Positions 41,441 through 54,869 of a stretch of DNA of 64,000 nucleotides are shown in pieces. The first letter of the stretch is position 1; every line of letters begins with the position of its first letter. Made by a program: the position numbers and the translations under genes. The notes below the pieces were generated by a model. That model had not been told where the DNA came from. It was given only the letters and a program-made list of their open reading frames with translations, and did not search any database. The stretch is from Tumebacillus sp. BK434. GTDB lineage: Bacteria > Bacillota > Bacilli > Tumebacillales > Tumebacillaceae. The stretch is from assembly GCF_004340785.1 (NCBI RefSeq), contig NZ_SLXS01000007.1:62001-126000 (forward strand), written 5' to 3'.

Positions 41441-43081
41441 ATGGCAAAGAAATGGCTCACGATTGGTCTCGCTGCTTCCATGGCGGCAACCCTGGCGGTT
41501 GGCTGCGGCAGCGAAGATAACAACAGCGGTGAAAAAGAAAACAACTCGAAAGAACCGCAAGAACTGAACCTGGTACTCACCGATGAAATCCCGACCATGG
41601 ACCTGTCGAAGGCGACCAACACGCTCTCCTTCACCACGTTCGCACAAGTTAACGAAGGTCTCGTGCGCACCGGCAAAGACGGCAAGCCGGAAGCGGGCGT
41701 TGCTGAGAAGTGGGAAGTTTCTCCGGACGGCCTGACCTACACCTTCCACCTGCGCGATAACGCAATGTGGTCGAACGGCGACAAGGTAACCGCGAAGGAC
41801 TTCGAATACTCCTTCAAGCGCACCCTGAACCCGGAAACCGGCGCTCAGTACTCCTTCATGGTGGCATGGATCAAAGGCGGCACTGCTTACAACGCAGGCA
41901 AAGGCTCTGCTGATGATGTAGCAGTTAAAGCGAAAGACGACAAGACGCTCGAAGTGACCTTGGATCACCCGATCCCGTTCTTCGTCGAGCAAATGGCGTT
42001 CCCGACCTTCTATCCGCAAAACCAAAAGTTCGTCGAAGCTCAAGGCGACAAATACGGTTCGGATGCAAACACCGCTCTGTACAACGGTCCGTTCAAGATG
42101 ACCGCATGGGAGCATGAGCAATCTACTGTCCTCGAAAAGAACGAAACCTACTGGAACGCAAAGCGCGTGAAACTCGATAAAATCAACTATCAAGTAGTTA
42201 AAGACAGCAACGCGGCTGTCAACCTCTATGAATCCGGCATGATCGACCGCACCGGTCTCGTGCGCGACCAAGTTGACAACTACAAGAGCTCCGCTGAATT
42301 CGCAGCAGTTCCGGAGTTGACCACCGCATACTTGCAGTACAACCAACGCGTTAAAGCGTTCACCTCTACAAAAGTTCGCCAAGCTCTGACTTGGGCTGTT
42401 GACGGCGATGCATACGCAGACGTTATCTACCACAACGGTTCCGTCGGCGCGACCGGCTACGCTCCGAAGGGCATCTCCAACGGTCAAGGCGGCGACTTCA
42501 CGAAAGATGTCGGCGATCTGATCAAGCGCAAAGAGAACGTATCCAAAGCGAAAGCTACCCTGCAGGAAGGCCTGAAAGAAGTCGGCCTGACCGAGTTCCC
42601 GAAAGTCAAGCTGCTGGCTGACGACGGCGACGTCGGTAAGAAAGCTGCAGAGTTCGTAAAAGAGCAGATCCGCCAAAACCTCGGCGTCGATGTTGAAGTT
42701 GAGAACGTTCCGTACAAACTGCGTCTGGAAAAATCCCACGGCCACGATTTCGATATGGTTATCTCCCTGTGGGGCGCAGACTACAACGATCCGATGACCT
42801 TCCTCGACATGTTCGTAACCGACGGTGACTTCAACGATCCGAAATGGTCGAACAAGGAATACGATGAGCTCATCAAGAAAGCTCAGCTGGAAACCGACGC
42901 GAAGAAGCGCATGAACTACCTGTACGATGCAGAAAAGCTCCTGATGAAAGAAATGCCGATCGGTCCGCTGACCTTCCGCGGCCGCGCGTTCATCATGAAG
43001 CCGTACGTGAAGGACTTCCGCATCCTGTCCTACGGCCCGGACTACGATCTCATCGACACCTATGTAGAAGGCAAAAAGTAA
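41441..43081 (+). CDS. Oligopeptide ABC transporter substrate-binding lipoprotein (OppA/DppE family), copy 1
   Basis: This 546-aa lipoprotein has a signal peptide with lipobox AVGC (cysteine near residue 22), a Ser/Asn/Lys linker, and the SBP family 5 signature region (VAEKWEVSPDGLTYTFHLRD). Length and motifs match OppA-type binding proteins that capture oligopeptides, including signalling peptides, outside the cell. No permease or ATPase gene is adjacent. The TATAGGGGG-type ribosome site is good. It is paralogous to the protein at 43625. Confidence 0.93.
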   Translation: MAKKWLTIGLAASMAATLAVGCGSEDNNSGEKENNSKEPQELNLVLTDEIPTMDLSKATNTLSFTTFAQVNEGLVRTGKDGKPEAGVAEKWEVSPDGLTYTFHLRDNAMWSNGDKVTAKDFEYSFKRTLNPETGAQYSFMVAWIKGGTAYNAGKGSADDVAVKAKDDKTLEVTLDHPIPFFVEQMAFPTFYPQNQKFVEAQGDKYGSDANTALYNGPFKMTAWEHEQSTVLEKNETYWNAKRVKLDKINYQVVKDSNAAVNLYESGMIDRTGLVRDQVDNYKSSAEFAAVPELTTAYLQYNQRVKAFTSTKVRQALTWAVDGDAYADVIYHNGSVGATGYAPKGISNGQGGDFTKDVGDLIKRKENVSKAKATLQEGLKEVGLTEFPKVKLLADDGDVGKKAAEFVKEQIRQNLGVDVEVENVPYKLRLEKSHGHDFDMVISLWGADYNDPMTFLDMFVTDGDFNDPKWSNKEYDELIKKAQLETDAKKRMNYLYDAEKLLMKEMPIGPLTFRGRAFIMKPYVKDFRILSYGPDYDLIDTYVEGKK

Positions 43082-45726: not shown

Positions 45727-47847
45727 GTGGCAAAGAGCAGGAGATGGTGGCGGCTGACAGGCAGGTTATGTGAAGGGGCGTTGGTTGTGACGGCCCTGTA
45801 CATCCTGTTCCAACATTCGATTGCAGCAACGGCCGATTTCTGGCTGGTGCTTGCACTTGCAGTGCCTCTGATCGCGTTGACCGTGCTGTTTCCCGTCACA
45901 CTCCCGTCAATGCTGGTCAGTCTGGAACTCGTGTTTACGTTTTATCTGGTGCTCAGTTTTGATGTGGCCACGACACTGTGGGTTAATTTTATCGGAGAGT
46001 TGAGCGCCTGCCTGTTGCTGCTCCGCGGGACGCGCAAGATGGCGGTGCTGCTCAATCCGGCGCTGAAAGTACTGTGTCTGGCCGCCGGGTATGCGGTGTT
46101 TGCGCTGGTCGCCGAGCGGGTGTTTGGCGGGCAGCTCTCGGCCGGATACACGGCGACCCAACTGATCACGGTGGCGGCAGTGTTCTTTTTCTTCAATCAT
46201 TTGATCATCAATTTGATGCTCTTTGTACAGACGTCGCATTTTAAGCTCCAGACGTGTTTGGAAGCGCTGCGCTGGGAATCGCTCGTCTATCTGATCGTTC
46301 TGCCGCTTTCGTTTCTGGGCTATGTGATGGAGCCGTATGCGGGCATTGCCACGCTGGCGATACTGATGGTGCCGGTCGCGATTCTGACGAATATGATCCG
46401 CTCGTTTAACCGCTTGCAATGGGCGAACCGCATCAATCAGACCTGTTTGGAACTGGCTTCTTCGAAGGAACTGCGCGTAATCTATAAGCGGACGTTTCAG
46501 TTGGCCCAAGAGTTTACCGATTCGCCGAGCGGGCTGCTGCTGGAACTCCAGCCGGACGGCAGTTTCCGCGGGACTGATGGTGCAGGTCGGGTCGTCGCAC
46601 AGTTGACCCATCCGCTGTTGCAGATGACAGCTGCCGCCAATCAGGTGCAGATTCTTCATAACGCCCACAAGAGCGGCTTGCAGTTGCCAGGGGTGGAAGC
46701 GCGGTCGATGATGCTGATCCCGCTGGTCGGGCAGTCGAACGTCTTTGGGATCATCTGCTTGTGGAAACTCAGCTCGCACGGCTTTCGCAAGGCGCACCAA
46801 GAGCAGCTGCGCTTTCTGGCCAGCCAGGTATCGATCATCTTGGACCGCAACCACGTGTATGAGGAGTTGGAGCGAGCGGCGGTGACGAACAAGCTGACCG
46901 GGCTGTACAATTATCGTTATTTCTACGATCAGCTCAACCACCGTTTTCAAACGGCACAGGAGCGGGGAATCGATCTGTGTCTGCTGATCTTTGACATCGA
47001 TCATTTTAAGAAATACAACGACATCTACGGCCATACGGTCGGCGATGAAGTGCTGCGCCAAGTCGCCCGTGAGATCCAAACGGTCGTCGAGCCGCATGAT
47101 CTGCTCTTGGCCCGCTACGGCGGGGAGGAATTTGTGGCGATCGGCCGGATGGGCACGGCGGAAGCGCAAGTGCTGGGCGAAGCGGTGCGTCAGAAGATCG
47201 AGCAGCATCAGTTTGTCTATCAAGGTCATACGGTGAAAAATATCACCATCTCCGGCGGCATCGCCCACCTCAGCGAGCATGATGCGATCTCGCCCAGCGA
47301 CTTGCTGGAAAAAGCGGATCAGGCGCTGTATTGGGGAGCGAAAGAGATGGGGCGCAACCGGATTGCCGCCTATCAAGGCGAATACGATCAGCGGCTGTTT
47401 GTGGACAGCTTGACCGGACTGCACACGACGCATTATCTGCGCCGCAAACTGCGCACGCTTTGTGAGCAGGAGAGCCATTTTCCGATCTCCTTCCTGCTGG
47501 TCGACATCCGCGGGATGCGGCGGATCAATGAGCGCTATGGATTTGAGATCGGCAATCAGGTGCTGGTCGATGCTTCGTATGTGCTGAAGCGGACGATGCG
47601 CACCGATGACATGATCTGCCGCTGTCTCGATGATGAGTTTCTCGTCGTCGTCAAAGGGCTCAGCCTGTGCGAAATCGAGCTGGTCGAGACGCGCATTATC
47701 GAAGCGTTCGCCGCCCACACCTATCCGGCGATCGGGCTGACTGTCGCCTGCGACATCACGGTGATCCAGATGCAATCGCCAGAAGAGGAGGCGCACATCT
47801 TCGAGCGCATTGACGGCTCACGGGAGCATTATGAGCAATCGAGTTGA
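45727..47847 (+). CDS. Membrane diguanylate cyclase: MASE-like, GAF and two GGDEF domains (second degenerate)
   Basis: The product is 706 aa. Residues about 15-230 hold seven or so membrane helices, then a GAF-like region (about 245-385), an intact GGDEF domain (GGEEF at 465-469, with KLTGLYNYRYF upstream) and a second domain in which the signature is CLDDEF, so it should be inactive. No RxxD inhibitory site directly precedes GGEEF. The enzyme should make c-di-GMP from GTP, tuned by a membrane signal. GTG 45727 has GGAGGAGG upstream. Terminator at the 3' end. Confidence 0.88.
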   Translation: MAKSRRWWRLTGRLCEGALVVTALYILFQHSIAATADFWLVLALAVPLIALTVLFPVTLPSMLVSLELVFTFYLVLSFDVATTLWVNFIGELSACLLLLRGTRKMAVLLNPALKVLCLAAGYAVFALVAERVFGGQLSAGYTATQLITVAAVFFFFNHLIINLMLFVQTSHFKLQTCLEALRWESLVYLIVLPLSFLGYVMEPYAGIATLAILMVPVAILTNMIRSFNRLQWANRINQTCLELASSKELRVIYKRTFQLAQEFTDSPSGLLLELQPDGSFRGTDGAGRVVAQLTHPLLQMTAAANQVQILHNAHKSGLQLPGVEARSMMLIPLVGQSNVFGIICLWKLSSHGFRKAHQEQLRFLASQVSIILDRNHVYEELERAAVTNKLTGLYNYRYFYDQLNHRFQTAQERGIDLCLLIFDIDHFKKYNDIYGHTVGDEVLRQVAREIQTVVEPHDLLLARYGGEEFVAIGRMGTAEAQVLGEAVRQKIEQHQFVYQGHTVKNITISGGIAHLSEHDAISPSDLLEKADQALYWGAKEMGRNRIAAYQGEYDQRLFVDSLTGLHTTHYLRRKLRTLCEQESHFPISFLLVDIRGMRRINERYGFEIGNQVLVDASYVLKRTMRTDDMICRCLDDEFLVVVKGLSLCEIELVETRIIEAFAAHTYPAIGLTVACDITVIQMQSPEEEAHIFERIDGSREHYEQSS

Positions 47848-47875
47848 GACCCGGAGGGAAACCCCGGGTCTTTTT
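47847..47875 (+). terminator. Rho-independent terminator
   Basis: AGACCCGG (47847-47854) pairs with CCGGGTCT (47864-47871) and is followed by TTTT. Starts inside the stop codon of the diguanylate cyclase gene. Confidence 0.85.
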
Positions 47876-47930
47876 GTGTGCCAAGAGGTACAATGAGGGT
47901 ACGAGTTTTTCGGATGGGATGTGGAAGCGG

Positions 47931-48710
47931 ATGAAGCGGTACGGGGTCAGGGTCGACGGGCGCGAGGTGCGAATCTATGAGCAGCCGGGCGCAGCGGGCC
48001 TCACGATGGTGTTTTTGCATGGCGTGGGCAGCACGGGTAAAGCGTGGGCCTACCAGATGCGGGGATTGAAAGCGAGCGGGCGGATGATCGCGGTGGAGGT
48101 GCCGGGTTTCTCCGGCGTCGGCGAACTTCCGGAGACGGTCGGGGAGCTGAGCGATTTGGCGCCGTTTGTGCTGCGCGTGCTGGATGTGCTGGGGGTGGCA
48201 GACGCGATCTGGGTCGGCAACTCGCTGGGCGGACGGATCGCGCTAGAAGCGGCGCTTGGCGCTCCGCAGCGGGTGCGCGGGCTGGTGCTGGCCGGCAGCG
48301 CCGGCATTCGGCTGCCGGGCGTCGAGATGCCGCAGTTGCATGCGCTGCGGCCGGAGGAACTGGAGCGCCGGCTGTTTTGGCAACCGGAGCTGTTCCATGC
48401 CCTGCAGACGGAGCAAAGCCGGGCGGCAGCACAAGCGGCAAGGCGGTTGTATGACCGATTGGCCGCAGCAACTGCTGTGATGGATCTGCGGACCCGGCTC
48501 GGAGAAGTGCAAGTACCGGCTCTGGTCATCTGGGGGCGGCACGACGGCGTGATCCCCCTGCCGATCGGCGAAGCGCTGGCCGCCGGGCTGACCGCTGCGG
48601 AGCTGCTGGTGCTCGACCATGCGGCGCACGTGCCGCAGATAGAGCAGCCGGAGCGGGTGCTGGCGGCGATCCTACGCTTTTTGGGAAAGTTTGGCGTGGC
48701 CGCTGAATAG
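47931..48710 (+). CDS. Alpha/beta-hydrolase-fold protein
   Basis: The predicted product is 259 aa with the alpha/beta hydrolase plan: oxyanion-hole VFLHGVGSTG, nucleophile elbow GNSLGG, acid in IWGRHDGVIP and catalytic histidine in DHAAHVPQIEQPE. Similar enzymes are esterases, MhpC/BphD-like C-C hydrolases or haloperoxidases; the substrate cannot be told. ATG 47931 is my choice; ATG 47919 is an alternative. A -10-like TACAAT (47889-47894) is upstream. The next gene starts within 10 nt. Confidence 0.82.
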   Translation: MKRYGVRVDGREVRIYEQPGAAGLTMVFLHGVGSTGKAWAYQMRGLKASGRMIAVEVPGFSGVGELPETVGELSDLAPFVLRVLDVLGVADAIWVGNSLGGRIALEAALGAPQRVRGLVLAGSAGIRLPGVEMPQLHALRPEELERRLFWQPELFHALQTEQSRAAAQAARRLYDRLAAATAVMDLRTRLGEVQVPALVIWGRHDGVIPLPIGEALAAGLTAAELLVLDHAAHVPQIEQPERVLAAILRFLGKFGVAAE

Positions 48711-48718
48711 GTTGGAGG

Positions 48719-49177
48719 ATGGAGAGCTGTACGAGGCAGGTGGTGACAGCGGTGACCGTTCGCGGACAGCTGGAAGCGCAAGTGTTGCAGAAGATGGAGG
48801 AAGCGGAAGCGTTTCTGAAAACGATGCGGGAAGAGCGGCTGGCCGTGGACGACCCGCGCTTTGTCGAATGGCAGCAGGGAGTAGACTTCCTGCTCTGGTT
48901 TGCGTTTGGCGAGCTGGCCCCGCATACCCGCACTTGGCGGCGCGCCTTGGCGGCCGACGTCACCTTGCACGTCTATTACAGCCGCCTGTCGGGGTGTCTC
49001 TACCGGGCGCAGAAACTGCTGCAAAACGGTGTGCCCAACCCGCTTCGCCCTGCGCCGGACGGCCTGATCTTACCTGTTTTTGCGATCAACCGCCGCCACC
49101 GGCAGGAGCAGTTGGCCGATCTGGCCCGCTGGCGGCTGTTTTTTGCGGCGGAGCGCGAGCAGCGGGGAAAGCTGTAG
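48719..49177 (+). CDS. Unknown protein downstream of the hydrolase
   Basis: This 152-aa (or 141-aa) protein is mostly helical and rich in Arg and Leu (RQEQLADLARWRLFFAAERE), with no signal peptide. Start uncertain: ATG 48719 lies directly on GGAGG, while GTG 48752 has GAGGCAGGTGG at a better distance. It probably shares a transcript with the hydrolase. Not recognised. Confidence 0.6.
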   Translation: MESCTRQVVTAVTVRGQLEAQVLQKMEEAEAFLKTMREERLAVDDPRFVEWQQGVDFLLWFAFGELAPHTRTWRRALAADVTLHVYYSRLSGCLYRAQKLLQNGVPNPLRPAPDGLILPVFAINRRHRQEQLADLARWRLFFAAEREQRGKL

Positions 49178-49244
49178 CCGATGCGCGGGAAACTGCTTCT
49201 ACCTGGCTCAGGGAGGGCGTACTGTAGGTAGGGGAGGTGAGACG

Positions 49245-49520
49245 TTGGAGGCGCTGCGAAAGTGGATACGCAAAGTGATGACCGGGGTGGCTGCCTTTTT
49301 GCTCGCCGCTTGGCAGACGCTCGGTTCGATCGATCTGTCACACCATATGATGCTGCCGTTTGGCGGCCCGTACTCGTACATGTGGACCCAGCAGGGCATG
49401 CGAGTTGCGATGGAAGATCCGGAACACCTTGCGCGCACCGAAGAAGAGGTGCGTGAGGAGCGGATACGCCAGACTGCCGCTCGGGAACGGGCCAATGAGC
49501 AGGAAAAAGCCGCTTCGTAA
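49245..49520 (+). CDS. Small membrane protein, unknown
   Basis: This 91-aa protein starts at TTG 49245 with GGGGAGGTGA upstream. One membrane helix at about residues 12-28 (GVAAFLLAAWQTLGSI) and a charged C-terminus (HLARTEEEVREERIRQTAAR) that is coiled-coil-prone. It converges with the pheromone-precursor gene at a shared terminator. Not recognised. Confidence 0.6.
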   Translation: MEALRKWIRKVMTGVAAFLLAAWQTLGSIDLSHHMMLPFGGPYSYMWTQQGMRVAMEDPEHLARTEEEVREERIRQTAARERANEQEKAAS

Positions 49521-49536
49521 TGGAAGCGGCTTTTTT
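49504..49536. terminator. Bidirectional terminator, closes the quorum-sensing operon on the minus strand
   Basis: AAAAAGCCGCTT pairs with GAAGCGGCTTTTTT; symmetrical, with T/A runs on both sides. Confidence 0.88.
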
Positions 49537-49548
49537 GATGAGTTTGTG

Positions 49549-49806
49549 TTATGCTCTTTTCGAAGAGAGCGGCTCTGCATCGTGGATGAAGCCGATGACC
49601 GGAGCTTTCTTAAGCGGCTCTGCATCGTGGATAAAGCCGATGACCGGAGCTTTCGAGAGTGGCTCTGCATCGTGGATAAAGCCGATGACCGGAGCTTTCG
49701 AGAGCGGCTCTGCGTCATGGATGAATGCGGTTTCTTGTGTGTCGGAGCCCAGGCCTGCAACTGCGACTCCTGCAAACAGAACGGCGGTAAGAAGTACTTT
49801 TTTCAT
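49549..49806 (-). CDS. Putative multi-copy signalling-peptide precursor (NprX/Phr-like)
   Basis: This 85-aa protein has an N-terminal export signal (residues 1-20, KKVLLTAVLFAGVAVAGLG) and a short spacer to residue 27. Then come four tandem units at residues 28, 43, 58 and 73, each beginning FIHDAEPL. Units 1 and 2 end SKAPVIG and unit 3 ends KKAPVIG; the last unit is cut short (SSKRA). SKAPVIG resembles SKPDIVG, the mature NprX peptide of the B. cereus group. The ATG overlaps the stop of the receptor gene (ATGA), with AAGGGGATC as ribosome site. I infer that the exported product is cut into short peptides, re-imported by an Opp system, and bound by the receptor. Confidence 0.8.
   Translation of the reverse strand: MKKVLLTAVLFAGVAVAGLGSDTQETAFIHDAEPLSKAPVIGFIHDAEPLSKAPVIGFIHDAEPLKKAPVIGFIHDAEPLSSKRA
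49552..49725 (-). repeat. Four tandem 45-nt units within the peptide precursor gene
   Basis: Units at 49681-49725, 49636-49680, 49591-49635 and a shortened one at 49552-49590. Units 1 and 2 encode the same 15 residues but differ at four bases, all synonymous. Unit 3 differs from unit 2 at four bases, changing only one residue (S to K). Confidence 0.95.
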
Positions 49807-51086
49807 AGTAAGATCCCCTTGTCTCTAAAATAGTTTTGTATATAGTGTTGGGTTTCTTCCAAAATTTCTGTAGAAGATTTATAATCTCCCAACTTTTTGA
49901 ACAAGTCGCTGACATGCAATCTCATCCTGTGATAATCGTGTACCATCTCCAGCTCGCGGAAGAGCTCCGCGCTCTGCAGCGCCGCTTCGATCGCCGCTTC
50001 GTACTCATGACGAAACGCATACAATAGCGAGCTCACGTTGTAGCATTGTGCGTGATACTTGGAGTGAGGCTGGCACAGCGCGAGCGCCTGATCGAGGTGT
50101 TCGGATGCAGCTTCGTCCCGCCCCAGCCGAATCAGTATCTTCGCGATCTCCGCGTGGTTGTTGGACAAGAGCTGTTCCAAGCCGAGCTCAACATATTGCC
50201 GGGTGCACTCCTGCAGAATCTCCAGCGCGGCTTCATGTTCGCCGAGCTCTCCGCGCAAGATGGCGAAGTTCTCTTTGACCATGATCGAATACTGAATGTG
50301 ATCGAGACTTTTAAACAGCGTCATCGCTTCCTGCCAATACTCCTGCGCCTGTTTGTACTCTTTTTTGCCATAGTGCGACCGGCCGAGCCCCAGATAGTTG
50401 GTGGCGAGGTGGTACAGGTTGGACGAGTTTTTCAACAGGTCCTGCGAGTTGAGAAACAGGTCGGTCGACTGGTCGTAATGGCCCAGCCGGTTATAAGTCA
50501 CCGCCAAGTTGGTCGTGATCTCCGCTTTCAGGAAGGAGTCGTCGACGTCCATCTCGTGGAGCGAGTCGTACGCGCGCTGCCAGTAGTGCATGGCGAGGGA
50601 CAGGTTGTGCTGTTTGTAGTACACCAGCCCCAACCGGTGCAACGCCCAGACGTGGGCACGGTGATCGTCCGCCTTCAAGGACATCGTCGTGACTTTTTCG
50701 AGCAGCTCTTTGACGGTGCTCAAATTATCCAATTGGAGAAGACATGTCGAGAGGTCCATCAGCAGGTCGAGTTCATCCCCGCCACCTGTTGCGAGCAAGT
50801 TCTCTAAGATCGGAACTGCGTTCGCATATTCTTTTGCTAGGATCAACGTCTTGGCAAGCTTGTGGGAAGTGGAATGCTCCAGATACTCCCCGGTCTCGGT
50901 CAGGAAAAAGTCGAGGGGAACCTCAAGACGTTCCGCGATCTGGCAGAGCAGTTTGTAAGACGGGTTGATCTTGTCCGCTTCAATCTGCGAGATCGCGCTG
51001 GCGCTAACCAAACCTTCGGCGAGCTGGCTCTGGGTCAGTCCCTTTTCCTGACGCCGCTGCCTGATCTTCTGGCCAAGAGATTCCAT
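49803..51086 (-). CDS. RRNPP-family HTH-TPR receptor/regulator (NprR/PlcR-like)
   Basis: This 427-aa protein has an N-terminal XRE helix-turn-helix (residues about 6-61: IRQRRQEKGLTQSQLAEGLV ... ISQIEADK) followed by about nine TPR-type helical pairs to the C-terminus. Domain order and length match NprR/PlcR of the B. cereus group (about 420 aa), where a short imported peptide binds the TPR groove and changes DNA binding; apo-NprR also acts on the Spo0F phosphorelay. ATG 51086 has GGAGGACACC upstream. It is co-transcribed with the peptide precursor, whose start overlaps its stop by 4 nt. Ligand and targets are inferred. Confidence 0.9.
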   Translation of the reverse strand: MESLGQKIRQRRQEKGLTQSQLAEGLVSASAISQIEADKINPSYKLLCQIAERLEVPLDFFLTETGEYLEHSTSHKLAKTLILAKEYANAVPILENLLATGGGDELDLLMDLSTCLLQLDNLSTVKELLEKVTTMSLKADDHRAHVWALHRLGLVYYKQHNLSLAMHYWQRAYDSLHEMDVDDSFLKAEITTNLAVTYNRLGHYDQSTDLFLNSQDLLKNSSNLYHLATNYLGLGRSHYGKKEYKQAQEYWQEAMTLFKSLDHIQYSIMVKENFAILRGELGEHEAALEILQECTRQYVELGLEQLLSNNHAEIAKILIRLGRDEAASEHLDQALALCQPHSKYHAQCYNVSSLLYAFRHEYEAAIEAALQSAELFRELEMVHDYHRMRLHVSDLFKKLGDYKSSTEILEETQHYIQNYFRDKGILL

Positions 51087-51121
51087 AGGTGTCCTCCAGT
51101 GTCTATCGCTTTCTGAGACCT

Positions 51122-51127
51122 ATTATA
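51122..51127 (-). promoter_or_regulatory. -10 element for the receptor/pheromone operon
   Basis: On the minus strand TATAAT (complement of 51122-51127), about 35 bp before the receptor start. The -35 (TTTCGT at 17 bp) is weak, as expected for a regulated promoter. Confidence 0.45.
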
Positions 51128-51235
51128 TAAGGATCATTATGCAAACGAAAGAGAGATTTAGTTATAAATTTTAATGGAATTAATGACATCGTTCATGAAA
51201 TTAGCAAGAATAAAATCTATAGCTTCATATAAATT

Positions 51236-51268
51236 AGAGGTGTCAGGTTATCTGACATCTCTTTTTCT
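51236..51268 (+). terminator. Terminator-like hairpin in the leader of the fix operon
   Basis: AGAGGTGTCAG (51236-51246) pairs with CTGACATCTCT (51252-51262) and is followed by TTTT. Nothing on the plus strand upstream needs terminating, so it may be an attenuator of fixABCX or terminate a small transcript. Confidence 0.6.
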
Positions 51269-51330
51269 CTTCATACAATCTCCTGTTTGTTCATATGTAT
51301 CGAACTAGGACAAACGCTTAGGGGGAAGTC

Positions 51331-52164
51331 ATGATGCTACATATCGTGGTCTGTGTCAAACAAGTGCCGGACTCCCGGGAGATCCGCATCGACCCGAAGA
51401 CGAACACGCTGGTTCGTGACGGAGTGCCGGCGATCGCCAACTTTTACGATATGCATGGACTGGAAGAAGCCTTGCGCATCAAAGAGACGACGGGGGCCAA
51501 GATCACGGTGGTCTGCATGGGGCCGCCGCCCGCAGAAAAGTCGCTCAAACAGTGCATTTCACTGGGCGCCGACGACGCGGTGCTCGTCACCGACCGCGGC
51601 TTTGCGGGCGCTGATACGCTCGCCACGTCCTACGTGCTGGGGCTGACGATTCAGAAAGTCGCGGAGGAGTTTGGGCCGGTCGACATCGTGTTCTGCGGCA
51701 AACAGACGCTTGACGGCGACACCGGGCAAGTAGGACCTGGCATCGCCTGCCGCCTCGATTTGGAGCAGTTGACCTATGTGTCGAAAGTGGAACACATCGA
51801 CGTGGACAACCGCCGTATCACCGTCCAGCGCCTGCTCGAGGACGGGGTGGAAGTGGTGCAGACGAAAATGCCCGTGCTGATCACGGCGCTCAAAGAGCTG
51901 AACAACGTGCGCCGCGCCCCGCTGCCGGGCATGATCCGCGCGGCGAAGTTCAAGCCGGTGATTTGGACAACCCAAGATTTCCCCGGCCTCGACCGCACCA
52001 AGATCGGTCTGAAAGGGTCGCCGACGATCGTCGCCAAAACGTGGGTGCCGGAAAGCAAGCAGGTGAACACCGAGTTCCTCGCAGCAGAGTCACCGGAAGG
52101 CGCAGCAGCAGCTGTCGTCGAGAAGCTCTGGGCGAGCGAACTGCCGGTCCGCTTCGGCTGGTAA
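51331..52164 (+). CDS. fixA: Electron transfer flavoprotein beta subunit FixA/EtfB
   Basis: This 277-aa ETF beta-type subunit starts (M)LHIVVCVKQVPDSREIRIDP and has the adenine-nucleotide-binding core FCGKQTLDGDTGQVGP. With FixB, FixC and FixX it builds the electron-bifurcating complex that uses NADH to reduce both quinone and low-potential ferredoxin or flavodoxin. First gene of the operon fixA-fixB-fixC-fixX. GGGGGAAG upstream; ATG 51334 is equally possible. A hairpin with a T tract lies in its leader. Confidence 0.93.
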   Translation: MMLHIVVCVKQVPDSREIRIDPKTNTLVRDGVPAIANFYDMHGLEEALRIKETTGAKITVVCMGPPPAEKSLKQCISLGADDAVLVTDRGFAGADTLATSYVLGLTIQKVAEEFGPVDIVFCGKQTLDGDTGQVGPGIACRLDLEQLTYVSKVEHIDVDNRRITVQRLLEDGVEVVQTKMPVLITALKELNNVRRAPLPGMIRAAKFKPVIWTTQDFPGLDRTKIGLKGSPTIVAKTWVPESKQVNTEFLAAESPEGAAAAVVEKLWASELPVRFGW

Positions 52165-52186
52165 ACCAAGGGAGGTGTCAGCGAAC

Positions 52187-53266
52187 ATGGCAGAAGAGAA
52201 CAAACAGAAAAACACGCCGGACGAGATGCCGGACTGGTCGGCCTACCGCGGTGTGATGATCTTTATCGAACAGCGCGCCGGGAGCGCGAAAAGCGTCTCC
52301 TGGCAACTGCTCGGCGAAGGGCGCAAGCTGGCCGACAAGTTGGAAGTCGATCTGATCGCACTCGTGATCGGTCACGACACCGGGCAGTTGGCGAAAGATG
52401 CGATCGCGTACGGCGCAGACCGCGTCTATGCGGCCGATGCGCCGGAGTTGAAAGCGTACCGCACCCGGCCATATTCGCGGGTCGCTCTGCACGTGATCCG
52501 CGACGTGAAGCCGGAGATCGTGCTGTTTGGTGCGACGGCGACCGGGCGCGACCTCGCCGGCGCGATCGCCACGCATCTGCCGACCGGGTTGACGGCCGAC
52601 TGTACGATCCTCGACGTCGAGCCGCATCCGAGCCGGTTGCTGCTCGCGTCCCGCCCTGCTTTTTCCGAAAAAATGCTGGCGACGATCCTCTGCAAACAGT
52701 ACCGCCCGCAGATGGCGACCGCCCGCGCCGGGGTGTTCGAAGCGCTGCCGTACGACAGCACCCGCAGCGGGGAGATTCACACCGTTCCGTCCCTGATGGC
52801 GGAGTCGGAGATCGATGCGCAAGTGCTGCAGTTTATCGCAGCGACGGAACGCTTCGACATCGAAGAGGCGGAAGTGATCGTCGCCGGCGGGAGGGGTCTT
52901 GGCGGACCGGAGCCGTTCAAGATGCTGCAGGAGCTGGCCGACGCTCTGGGCGGCGTGGTCGGAGCTTCGCGCGCGGCGGTCGATGCGGGCTGGATCAAGC
53001 ATGCGCATCAGGTGGGGCAGACCGGCTATACGGTGCGCCCCAAGCTGTACATCGCCGTTGGCATCTCAGGTGCGGTGCAGCATGTGGTCGGGATGCAAAA
53101 CTCCGACTGCATCATCGCGATCAACCGCGACCAGGACGCGCCGATCTTTAAAGTGGCGAACTACGCGATCGTAGGCGACCTGTTCAAGATCGTCCCGGCG
53201 CTGACCGAAGCGGTCAAAGCGAAGCGCTCCGCAGGCAAGCAAATTCCGCAAGAAGTCGCCGACTAG
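52187..53266 (+). CDS. fixB: Electron transfer flavoprotein alpha subunit FixB/EtfA
   Basis: This 359-aa protein has an N-terminal EtfA fold (WSAYRGVMIFIEQRAG) and the C-terminal FAD-binding domain (VVGASRAAVDAGWIKHAHQV; QHVVGMQNSDCIIAINRDQD). ATG 52187 is preferred: GGGAGGTG ends eight bases upstream, and the GTG at 52175 lies inside that site. It continues directly into fixC. Confidence 0.93.
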   Translation: MAEENKQKNTPDEMPDWSAYRGVMIFIEQRAGSAKSVSWQLLGEGRKLADKLEVDLIALVIGHDTGQLAKDAIAYGADRVYAADAPELKAYRTRPYSRVALHVIRDVKPEIVLFGATATGRDLAGAIATHLPTGLTADCTILDVEPHPSRLLLASRPAFSEKMLATILCKQYRPQMATARAGVFEALPYDSTRSGEIHTVPSLMAESEIDAQVLQFIAATERFDIEEAEVIVAGGRGLGGPEPFKMLQELADALGGVVGASRAAVDAGWIKHAHQVGQTGYTVRPKLYIAVGISGAVQHVVGMQNSDCIIAINRDQDAPIFKVANYAIVGDLFKIVPALTEAVKAKRSAGKQIPQEVAD

Positions 53267-53280
53267 GAGGAGAAGAGGAT

Positions 53281-54582
53281 ATGGAAAAATTTGATGCTGT
53301 CATCGTCGGCGCAGGTCCGGCCGGAGCTGCAGCCGCACTGACGATGGCACGGGCCGGGCTGTCGGTCGTGCTGCTGGAGCGCGGCGAGTTCCCCGGTTCG
53401 AAAAATGTCTTCGGCGGTGTCCTCTACCGCAAACAGCTCGAGGACATCGTGCCGGAGTTCTGGAAGGAAGCACCGCTGGAGCGCAAGATCGTCGAACAAA
53501 ACCTCTGGATCATGGGCCGGGATGCGGTGACGAAGCTCGGTCACCGCAACGAAGGCTTCAAAGACCCGGCGAACTGCTGGACCGGGATGCGCGTCAAATT
53601 TGACCAGTGGTTTGCGAACAAAGCGGTGGAAGCGGGCGCCTTGCCCGTCTATGAGACGGTGGCGCTGGAACTGATCCGCGAAGGCGGCAAAGTGGTCGGC
53701 GTGCGCACCGACCGCGAAGCCGGCGATCTCTACGCCGATGTGGTCGTCATCGCCGACGGCGTCAACTCGCTGCTCGGCAAGTCGCTAGGTATCCACAAAG
53801 AGTGGGCGCCCGATCAGGTGTCGCTGGCTGTCAAAGAGCAGATCTTCCTGCCGAAAGAAAAGATTCTCGACCGCTTCGGCCTTGAAGGCGATGAAGGCGC
53901 GACGATCGAGTTCGCCGGGGAAACGTCGCTTGGCATGACCGGGCTCGGCTTCCTCTACACCAACAAAGATTCGATCTCGCTTGGCATCGGCGTGATGGTG
54001 TCCGACCTGAAAAAAAGCAGAGTCAAGCCGTATCATCTGCTCGAAGAGGTCAAAAACCACCCGGCGATTCGTAAACTGATCCAAGGCGGTGAGACGAAGG
54101 AATACGCCGGCCACCTGATACCGGAAGGGGGCTTAGCGGCGGTGCCGCAGCTGTCGGGCGACGGCTGGGTCGTCTGCGGCGATGCGGCACAGCTGATCAA
54201 CTTCGTCCACCGCGAAGGCACCAACCTCGCGATGACATCGGGCCGCTTCGCGGCGGAAGCGATCATCGCAGCGAAAGAAAAAGGCGACTATTCCAGAGCG
54301 TCGCTGGCTCTCTACGACCGCAAAGTGGCCGAGTCGTTCATCCGCAAAGACCTCAAGAAATACCAGGGTCTGCACGGGCTGTTGAACGAGATGGACCCCC
54401 GACTGCTCTTCACCGATCTGCCGAAAGCGATCAATGCGGCCGCTTTTGAGATGCTCAAGGTTGACGGCAAGAGCAAGGCGGAGAAGCAGCGCTTTGCGAT
54501 CGACCATATCAAACGGACGGCCGGCGGCACGTGGGATCTCGTCAAGCTGGGCTGGAAAGGATGGAGGGCGATCAACGGATGA
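53281..54582 (+). CDS. fixC: FAD-dependent dehydrogenase FixC (ETF-quinone oxidoreductase-like)
   Basis: This 433-aa flavoprotein has the dinucleotide fold VIVGAGPAGAAAALTMARAG at its start and a second FAD contact around GWVVCGDAAQLINFVHREGTN. FixC accepts electrons from the FixAB flavins and delivers them to menaquinone or the partner FixX. GGAGGAG upstream of ATG 53281. The end overlaps fixX by 4 nt (ATGA 54579-54582). Confidence 0.93.
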   Translation: MEKFDAVIVGAGPAGAAAALTMARAGLSVVLLERGEFPGSKNVFGGVLYRKQLEDIVPEFWKEAPLERKIVEQNLWIMGRDAVTKLGHRNEGFKDPANCWTGMRVKFDQWFANKAVEAGALPVYETVALELIREGGKVVGVRTDREAGDLYADVVVIADGVNSLLGKSLGIHKEWAPDQVSLAVKEQIFLPKEKILDRFGLEGDEGATIEFAGETSLGMTGLGFLYTNKDSISLGIGVMVSDLKKSRVKPYHLLEEVKNHPAIRKLIQGGETKEYAGHLIPEGGLAAVPQLSGDGWVVCGDAAQLINFVHREGTNLAMTSGRFAAEAIIAAKEKGDYSRASLALYDRKVAESFIRKDLKKYQGLHGLLNEMDPRLLFTDLPKAINAAAFEMLKVDGKSKAEKQRFAIDHIKRTAGGTWDLVKLGWKGWRAING

Positions 54583-54869
54583 GCGAAAACAAAGGGACAA
54601 CGATCGAAGAGAAGTTGTATACGATCCGCTACAAAGTGGACGATATCTCGCATTTGATCATCAAAGACCAGCAGGTCTGCGCGAAATGCCCGACCAAAGA
54701 GTGCAACGATTTCTGTCCGGCCGACGTGTACTCGTGGGCCGACCTGACCACGCACGTGGCGTTCGAAAACTGCATCGAGTGCGGCACTTGCCGCATCGGC
54801 TGCCCGGACTACAACATCGAGTGGGTCTATCCGAAAGGCGGTCATGGCATCACCTACAAGTTCGGCTGA
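54579..54869 (+). CDS. fixX: Ferredoxin-like protein FixX
   Basis: This 96-aa iron-sulphur protein has two cysteine groups: CAKCPTKECNDFCP near residue 30, and CIECGTCRIGCP near residue 65, which binds a [4Fe-4S] cluster. It takes electrons from FixC. ATG 54579 overlaps the fixC stop; GGATGGAGG upstream. Last gene of the operon, followed by a terminator. With fixA, B and C it makes a complete bifurcating ETF complex. Confidence 0.93.
   Translation: MSENKGTTIEEKLYTIRYKVDDISHLIIKDQQVCAKCPTKECNDFCPADVYSWADLTTHVAFENCIECGTCRIGCPDYNIEWVYPKGGHGITYKFG

Follow-up and report, generated by a model that had tools for sequence, protein, structure and literature searches.

Which part of a repetitive secreted precursor carries the message when the precursor is encoded directly behind a putative peptide receptor? 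The question is raised by a locus in the window analysed here, a 64,000-nucleotide stretch of the Tumebacillus sp. BK434 genome (contig NZ_SLXS01000007.1, positions 62,001 to 126,000), in which a gene for a protein with a helix-turn-helix (HTH) domain and an array of tetratricopeptide repeats (TPRs) precedes a gene for a short, internally repeated peptide precursor. A preliminary description, made from the DNA letters, had taken the pair for an NprR/NprX-type quorum-sensing system with the repeated heptapeptide SKAPVIG as its pheromone. We arrive at a different signal. In our reading, to which we assign a probability of about 0.72, the locus encodes an RRNPPA-type quorum-sensing pair in which the octapeptide FIHDAEPL would be the signal, the TPR receptor would change its activity on binding it, and nearby promoters would most likely be the targets; SKAPVIG is probably a variable linker, and the ligand first proposed is probably wrong. 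The elements from which we argue, namely the gene pair, the repeat, the coupling among orthologues, the conservation of the core and the synonymous-only variation within it, were all computed here.

The receptor gene occupies positions 49803..51086 on the minus strand and encodes 427 amino acids, with the HTH domain at residues ~4-65 (Pfam HTH_3 at residues 8-61, E 3.9e-14) followed by the TPR array (TPR_12, E 1.7e-21, and further TPR models). Its stop codon overlaps the start of the precursor gene by 4 nt, in the sequence ATGA. The precursor gene (49549..49806, minus strand) has a ribosome-binding-site-like AAGGGG and encodes 85 amino acids of secretory type, for which neither Pfam (no match at E <= 0.1) nor NCBIfam returns a family. 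In both genes, and in their overlap, the preliminary description was exact. The signal-peptide-like N-terminus of the precursor, MKKVLLTAVLFAGVAVAGLG (49747..49806, minus strand), combines a charged MKK start with a hydrophobic stretch of 11 residues, whose mean hydropathy is 2.7 by a simple hydropathy rule. The 45-bp tandem repeat that follows is real, since Tandem Repeats Finder reports an array with period 45 and score 267 at 49565-49722 (3.5 copies, 90% matches), the sole array that it reports across 48000-53000.

Translated on the minus strand, the repeat consists of a core, FIHDAEPL, and a linker. The first core (49702..49725) is preceded by Ala, and the second (49657..49680), third (49612..49635) and fourth (49567..49590) are each preceded by Gly. 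Cores 1 and 2 are followed by SKAPVIG (49681..49701 and 49636..49656), core 3 by KKAPVIG (49591..49611), and core 4 by SSKRA. Four units of 15 residues had been proposed; the tandem repeat and the counts of SKAPVIG (two) and KKAPVIG (one) stand, but only three units have 15 residues and the fourth is short. FIHDAEPL thus occurs four times in the precursor and the SKAPVIG-type stretch only three times.

The coupling of the two genes reaches well beyond BK434. We compared seven genomes, G000-G006, comprising the BK434 genome itself (G000), T. avium (G001), a congener (G002) and four genomes of a sister genus (G003-G006); NCBI places Tumebacillus in the Alicyclobacillaceae, and our genome set keeps a separate Tumebacillus family, the name used here. 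Receptor orthologues at E <= 1e-90 occur in 7 of the 14 genomes of the order, all from the Tumebacillus family and BK434 included, and the six others are 54-93% identical to the BK434 receptor, with T. avium at 93%. Because a small secretory-type open reading frame (ORF) adjoins the receptor at all seven loci, with its start at -4 to +2 nt relative to the receptor stop, the link between receptor and precursor is common to both genera. The survey of related genomes that had been suggested as a check thus came out in favor of the pair, with the precursor directly downstream in every case. The claim that the receptor travels with a multi-copy precursor holds in part: the coupling is universal among the seven loci, but repeats are present in only four of the precursors. 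Core copies number four in G000, four in G001 and five in G002, and in the sister genus two in G005 and one each in G003, G004 and G006, so the larger multiplication is seen in Tumebacillus.

Farther afield, 299 genomes of the class were searched with a profile and scored for at most five candidates each; matches at E <= 1e-60 came from 14 genomes, 13 of them within the order. A single-protein scan of the GTDB contig collection, of a kind that reaches close relatives only, returned T. avium alone. The phage collection gave no match to the system, and among viral contigs no match was confirmed for two alignments. Plasmids yielded 19 matching records, none covering 80% of the query; for three plasmid regions the gene tables, which are incomplete and whose ORFs were not searched, show no small precursor beside the receptor-like gene.

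Past the signal-like N-terminus, the seven orthologous precursors have one pattern in common, A-phi-phi-x-x-x-[ED]-P-[LMV]. It appears as FIHDAEPL (four copies in each of two precursors), FINGGEPL (five copies), LFEGPEPL (two copies), and IFYGGDPV, IWNEHEPM and IWNNGEPL (one copy each). We delimited these cores by eye in the sequences before tallying them; without exception, the 18 copies come after an Ala or Gly and carry Pro at position 7. What comes after the core varies between precursors in sequence and in length: the corresponding stretch reads SPVIG or PHAPVIG in T. avium, SPKFA in G002 and APKLA in G005, and nothing SKAPVIG-like follows the single core of G003, G004 or G006. Among core copies of the same species, every one of the 16 variable codon columns is synonymous. 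The chance of this is ~8e-11 if random changes are synonymous at a frequency of 0.23, a crude estimate that takes columns as independent and ignores mutation bias. The linkers within species show 4 synonymous and 2 nonsynonymous variable columns, plus one length difference. Because the SKAPVIG stretch varies between species while FIHDAEPL is constrained, SKAPVIG is unlikely to be the pheromone.

Two 24-nt cores differ on average at 2.7 positions in G000, at 1.8 in G001 and at 2.6 when one is taken from each genome, whereas G002 cores differ by 2.8 among themselves and by about 6 from those of G000 and G001, and G005 cores by 3.0 among themselves and by 10-11 from the others. A general homogenisation of copies within species was rejected, as only G002 and G005 stand apart.

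Might the active ligand be longer than the core, consisting of the whole 15-residue unit or of the core with some linker residues attached? Copies that differ in their linkers would then deliver ligands that are related but distinct. The PVIG kept between G000 and G001 would suit such a ligand, and trimming an internal copy on both sides demands two cuts, a step that PMC9765709 treats as an open question. Against it, linker length and sequence differ between orthologues while the core pattern stays, and the tail of the last copy is unlike the inner linkers in all four multi-copy precursors. We regard a longer ligand as unlikely and keep FIHDAEPL as the probable signal.

The pattern of the core is not confined to this locus. 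Receptor-like HTH/TPR matches (E <= 1e-8, partial matches included) number 26, 52, 30, 30, 50, 25 and 38 in G000 to G006, and many have a small secretory-type ORF close by, which overlaps the downstream end or lies some 160-250 bp upstream. Our precursor survey took in 201 of the 251 matches, with a ceiling of 30 loci for each search; five loci had no local tblastn match and four more no usable ORF, leaving 192. Rules blind to the C-terminus returned 80 distinct candidate precursors, 32 downstream and 48 upstream. Loci overlap, nine of the 80 having been met from more than one, so that some receptors are counted twice, some neighbors went unexamined and receptor numbers are rough; some of the 48 upstream candidates may belong to a neighboring receptor.

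Ala-x6-Pro is present in 60 of the 80 candidates, versus 21.4 +/- 3.8 expected from 500 shuffles. Ala-to-Pro distances of 5 (49 vs 22.7) and 4 (40 vs 23.6) are likewise raised. Once the orthologue group of the BK434 receptor is removed, the motif remains in 53 of 73 candidates, and after six generic ORFs were dropped by eye and near-duplicates then removed, it remains in 55 of 67 (19.4 +/- 3.7 expected, 300 shuffles). Multi-copy precursors are common in the Tumebacillus family, since 29 of the 80 candidates hold a non-overlapping internal pair of 8-mers that agree at 5 or more positions, where 30 shuffles gave 1.3 on average and 3 at most. Examples are KIFDPDPL/NIFDPDPL (L036), SITTPVLD/SITTPIAD (L037) and the AAVEDPGP repeats of L119; several cores among the candidates contain DPGP or GPGP. 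The precursor at L206 (G006) carries four related but non-identical cores (the SEWSDPEP, SWYDPDP, TWHDPDP, IYHDPDP series), which makes this gene a candidate for several messages from one precursor. A second receptor group (L037, L061, L089, L117, L144, L174, L198), one per genome and each with a downstream precursor, is printed beside the BK434 receptor group in a 184-receptor tree, of which we use the leaf order only. Two SI..P segments occur in six of its seven precursors.

To what class does the receptor belong? That it is an HTH-TPR protein of the RRNPPA type is well supported; a specific kinship to NprR is unproven. In a single-sequence search of the PDB with the receptor, PlcR ranks highest of the RRNPPA proteins, over the HTH region only (residues 2-62, E 6.8e-6), and the top 60 sequences do not include NprR. 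When 22 members of the family are combined in a profile, NprR is matched (4gpk, TPR region, E 2.8e-15), as are Rap proteins (E about 1e-12 to 1e-11), but so are kinesin light chain, LGN and other eukaryotic or unrelated TPR proteins. On a weak AlphaFold model of the receptor, Foldseek puts LGN at the top, with RapH appearing from rank 26 and NprR from rank 41, and VIA-align gives Z scores of 19.0 for LGN, 15.8 for RapI and 15.6 for NprR (5dbk), a comparison that, given such a model, indicates a TPR superhelix only.

In Rap, NprR and PlcR, asparagine residues hold the backbone of the bound peptide. Three asparagines of the BK434 receptor, N193, N230 and N273, lie at similar places in TPR helices and are invariant in the seven orthologues. 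Because the trio is not general in paralogues, with Asn in 40% or fewer of them at each position, it is only a hint of peptide-contact residues.

If the pair works in quorum sensing with FIHDAEPL as its signal, the precursor would be translated together with the receptor and then exported by Sec. Extracellular cleavage after the Ala or Gly and after position 8 would yield several copies of FIHDAEPL, and these would be re-imported by an oligopeptide transporter. A candidate for the import step is the SBP_bac_5 solute-binding protein (a family that includes oligopeptide-binding proteins) encoded at 41441-43081 of the window. Once bound in the TPR groove, FIHDAEPL would alter how the receptor acts on DNA, the likeliest sites being the receptor's own promoter region and the divergent etfBA operon. 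In this scheme, SKAPVIG and KKAPVIG would be spacers that may carry protease recognition, and four identical cores would let each precursor yield more signal. The variation between the linkers would not amount to two messages; indeed, the earlier suggestion of two ligand variants finds no support because the difference between SKAPVIG and KKAPVIG lies in the linker.

The putative target operon (51331..54869, plus strand) comprises etfB, etfA, a FixC-like and a FixX-like gene and is thus fixABCX-like, with Pfam matches to ETF, ETF_alpha, an FAD oxidoreductase and Fer4_ETF_QO and NCBIfam matches for the first three genes. Because etfB and the start of etfA diverge from the receptor at all seven loci, a conserved arrangement, the operon is a candidate for control by the receptor. 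FixC and FixX were identified in the BK434 operon only; ORFs of T. avium agree with them in size and order. The interval between receptor and etfB contains a palindrome, TGTCAGGTTATCTGACA (51241..51257), which could be the receptor's operator or, because a T run comes after it, an RNA hairpin. G000 and G001 have the exact sequence here and nowhere else; G002 has CGTTAGATTATCTAACA, with both half-sites changed together. If two mismatches are allowed, G001 has three further sites and G002 two, roughly as many as a reversed-pattern control gives, and by eye the palindrome was not seen at the four sister-genus loci. A TATAAT-like -10 element for the receptor gene stands at 51122-51127 on the minus strand and reads ATTATA on the plus strand in six of the seven aligned loci.

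Several points weigh against the FIHDAEPL reading. Export, cleavage sites, import, binding and target genes are all predictions, and the rule from which Sec export is predicted is crude. The receptor model used above has a mean pLDDT (predicted local distance difference test) of 61 and comes from a two-sequence alignment (BK434 and T. avium). We ourselves chose residue 8 as the core's last, and the linkers are under some constraint, as PVIG recurs between the cores of both G000 and G001. Nor is the Ala-x6-Pro grammar universal: 20 of the 80 candidate precursors are without it, it is missing from six of the seven precursors of the second receptor group, and the shuffle tests ignore relatedness, although removing near-duplicates keeps the signal. 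Last, L017-L023, which at 35-37% identity are the nearest receptor paralogues and occur once in each genome, lack an adjacent candidate precursor under the survey rules, and for this reason relatives of the BK434 receptor can do without one. L017-L023 may answer peptides of other systems, or none.

These paralogues, together with the absence of a Pfam or NCBIfam family for the precursor, would also agree with a small gene that encodes a secreted peptide with some other job, antimicrobial or at the cell surface, and happens to be under an HTH-TPR regulator; the binding of a mature peptide to the receptor is itself a prediction. We nevertheless consider such a role improbable, as the precursor adjoins the receptor at all seven loci, holds a short constrained core within otherwise free sequence, and has counterparts of like layout with other cores beside many paralogous receptors. 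That SKAPVIG and KKAPVIG are NprX-like heptapeptide pheromones of an NprR-type receptor, perhaps in two variants, is hardly credible: the identity of SKAPVIG to SKPDIVG (NprX as quoted in the preliminary description) at 3 of 7 aligned residues, the retained PVIG of G000 and G001 and the profile match to the NprR TPR region speak for it, but the stretch differs in T. avium and G005, is absent even from the congener G002, has no counterpart after the single cores of G003, G004 and G006 and is missing from the last unit of the BK434 precursor itself, the synonymous-only variation belongs to the core, and the Ala-x6-Pro of most paralogous precursors fits FIHDAEPL instead. What remains of the NprR/NprX-type assignment is that a TPR receptor goes with a secreted precursor of several copies, most likely as a peptide quorum-sensing pair.

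Around the pair, a terminator-like hairpin, GCCGCTTC/GAAGCGGC, with T runs was recognized by eye beyond the precursor (49504..49536) and, again by eye, at the other loci. The terminator scan does not list this hairpin, and Rfam gives no match at E <= 0.1 on 49000-51500. Farther along, a GAF-GGDEF protein with two GGDEF stretches is encoded at 45727-47847, followed by an alpha/beta hydrolase gene at 47844-48710.

Should FIHDAEPL prove to be the signal, it would supply an exact, testable ligand for a receptor with no assigned peptide, with natural variants (FINGGEPL, LFEGPEPL, IWNNGEPL and others) for mapping specificity. With an Ala-x6-Pro grammar, the ligands of many receptors in each genome could be predicted from sequence. 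Orthologous precursors with one, two, four and five copies form a natural series for asking how internal copies are excised, a problem that PMC9765709 calls unsolved. A wider picture is possible but doubtful: the family might use a peptide language of its own, with tens of HTH-TPR receptors per genome, many paired with Ala/Gly-x6-Pro-x octapeptides that are often in tandem, and the BK434 pair might place fixABCX-like electron flow, respiratory or ferredoxin-linked, under quorum control. Three things are worth following: the corrected ligand, a shared peptide grammar alongside tens of receptor paralogues in each genome, and the conserved association with an electron-transfer operon.

How does the system compare with those already known? 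The idea of a multi-copy precursor is itself not new, and although the preliminary description knew of no account of this exact form, published papers report multi-copy RRNPPA precursors, nprX included: duplications in phr and some nprX genes (PMC5199041), repeats in all 17 NprR-linked propeptides of atypically large size and up to six identical copies (PMC9765709), and two functionally tested Rap systems with mention of up to eight pheromone copies (PMC11343458). For this family of bacteria the record is thinner. PMC10075063 names the Alicyclobacillaceae among families with gene clusters linked to quorum-sensing systems; 'Tumebacillus' is absent from its main text, and its supplementary tables may list the pair. 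Beyond one count in that paper, our literature searches brought up no account of Tumebacillus or Alicyclobacillaceae RRNPP systems; for quorum sensing in the genus, the one paper returned is a review of tomato rhizosphere microbes.

Like NprR-NprX (PMC9765709), the BK434 pair has an HTH and multi-TPR receptor with the precursor immediately downstream. It differs in that FIHDAEPL does not resemble SKPDIVG, and in its host, a Tumebacillus rather than a member of the Bacillus cereus group. NprR in its peptide-free form binds Spo0F and has a role in sporulation. PlcR, of the PlcR-PapR system, is a five-TPR protein (clan A in PMC12700828) of about 290 amino acids (293 in the PDB chain), against 427 in the BK434 receptor. 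AloR and Paenibacillaceae subfamily 08 are described in the same paper as having an HTH with nine TPRs, and the HTH-TPR architecture here is likened to theirs by description. Peptides of AimR and of subfamily 08 often carry a DPG motif (PMC12700828); some paralogue cores contain DPGP or GPGP, whereas FIHDAEPL has no DPG.

The pair also fits the published signature of the candidate subfamilies of RRNPP_detector, as set out in PMC10075063: the signature asks for a receptor of 250-500 residues with TPRs, here 427, and for an adjacent propeptide gene of 10-100 residues, here 85 and adjacent at all seven loci, with Sec export predicted only. Unlike Rap, which has no HTH domain (PMC9765709), the BK434 receptor carries HTH_3 at residues 8-61, and Phr autoinducers are penta- or hexapeptides (PMC5199041), against an octapeptide core here. 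The two tested systems with duplicated Phr peptides come from Bacillus subtilis phages, and, as in their precursors (Phr3T and Phr105), several pheromone copies would share one precursor in BK434 (PMC11343458). In those Phr precursors the pheromones are conserved and the stretches between them variable (PMC11343458), the very argument by which FIHDAEPL, and not SKAPVIG, is probably the signal here.

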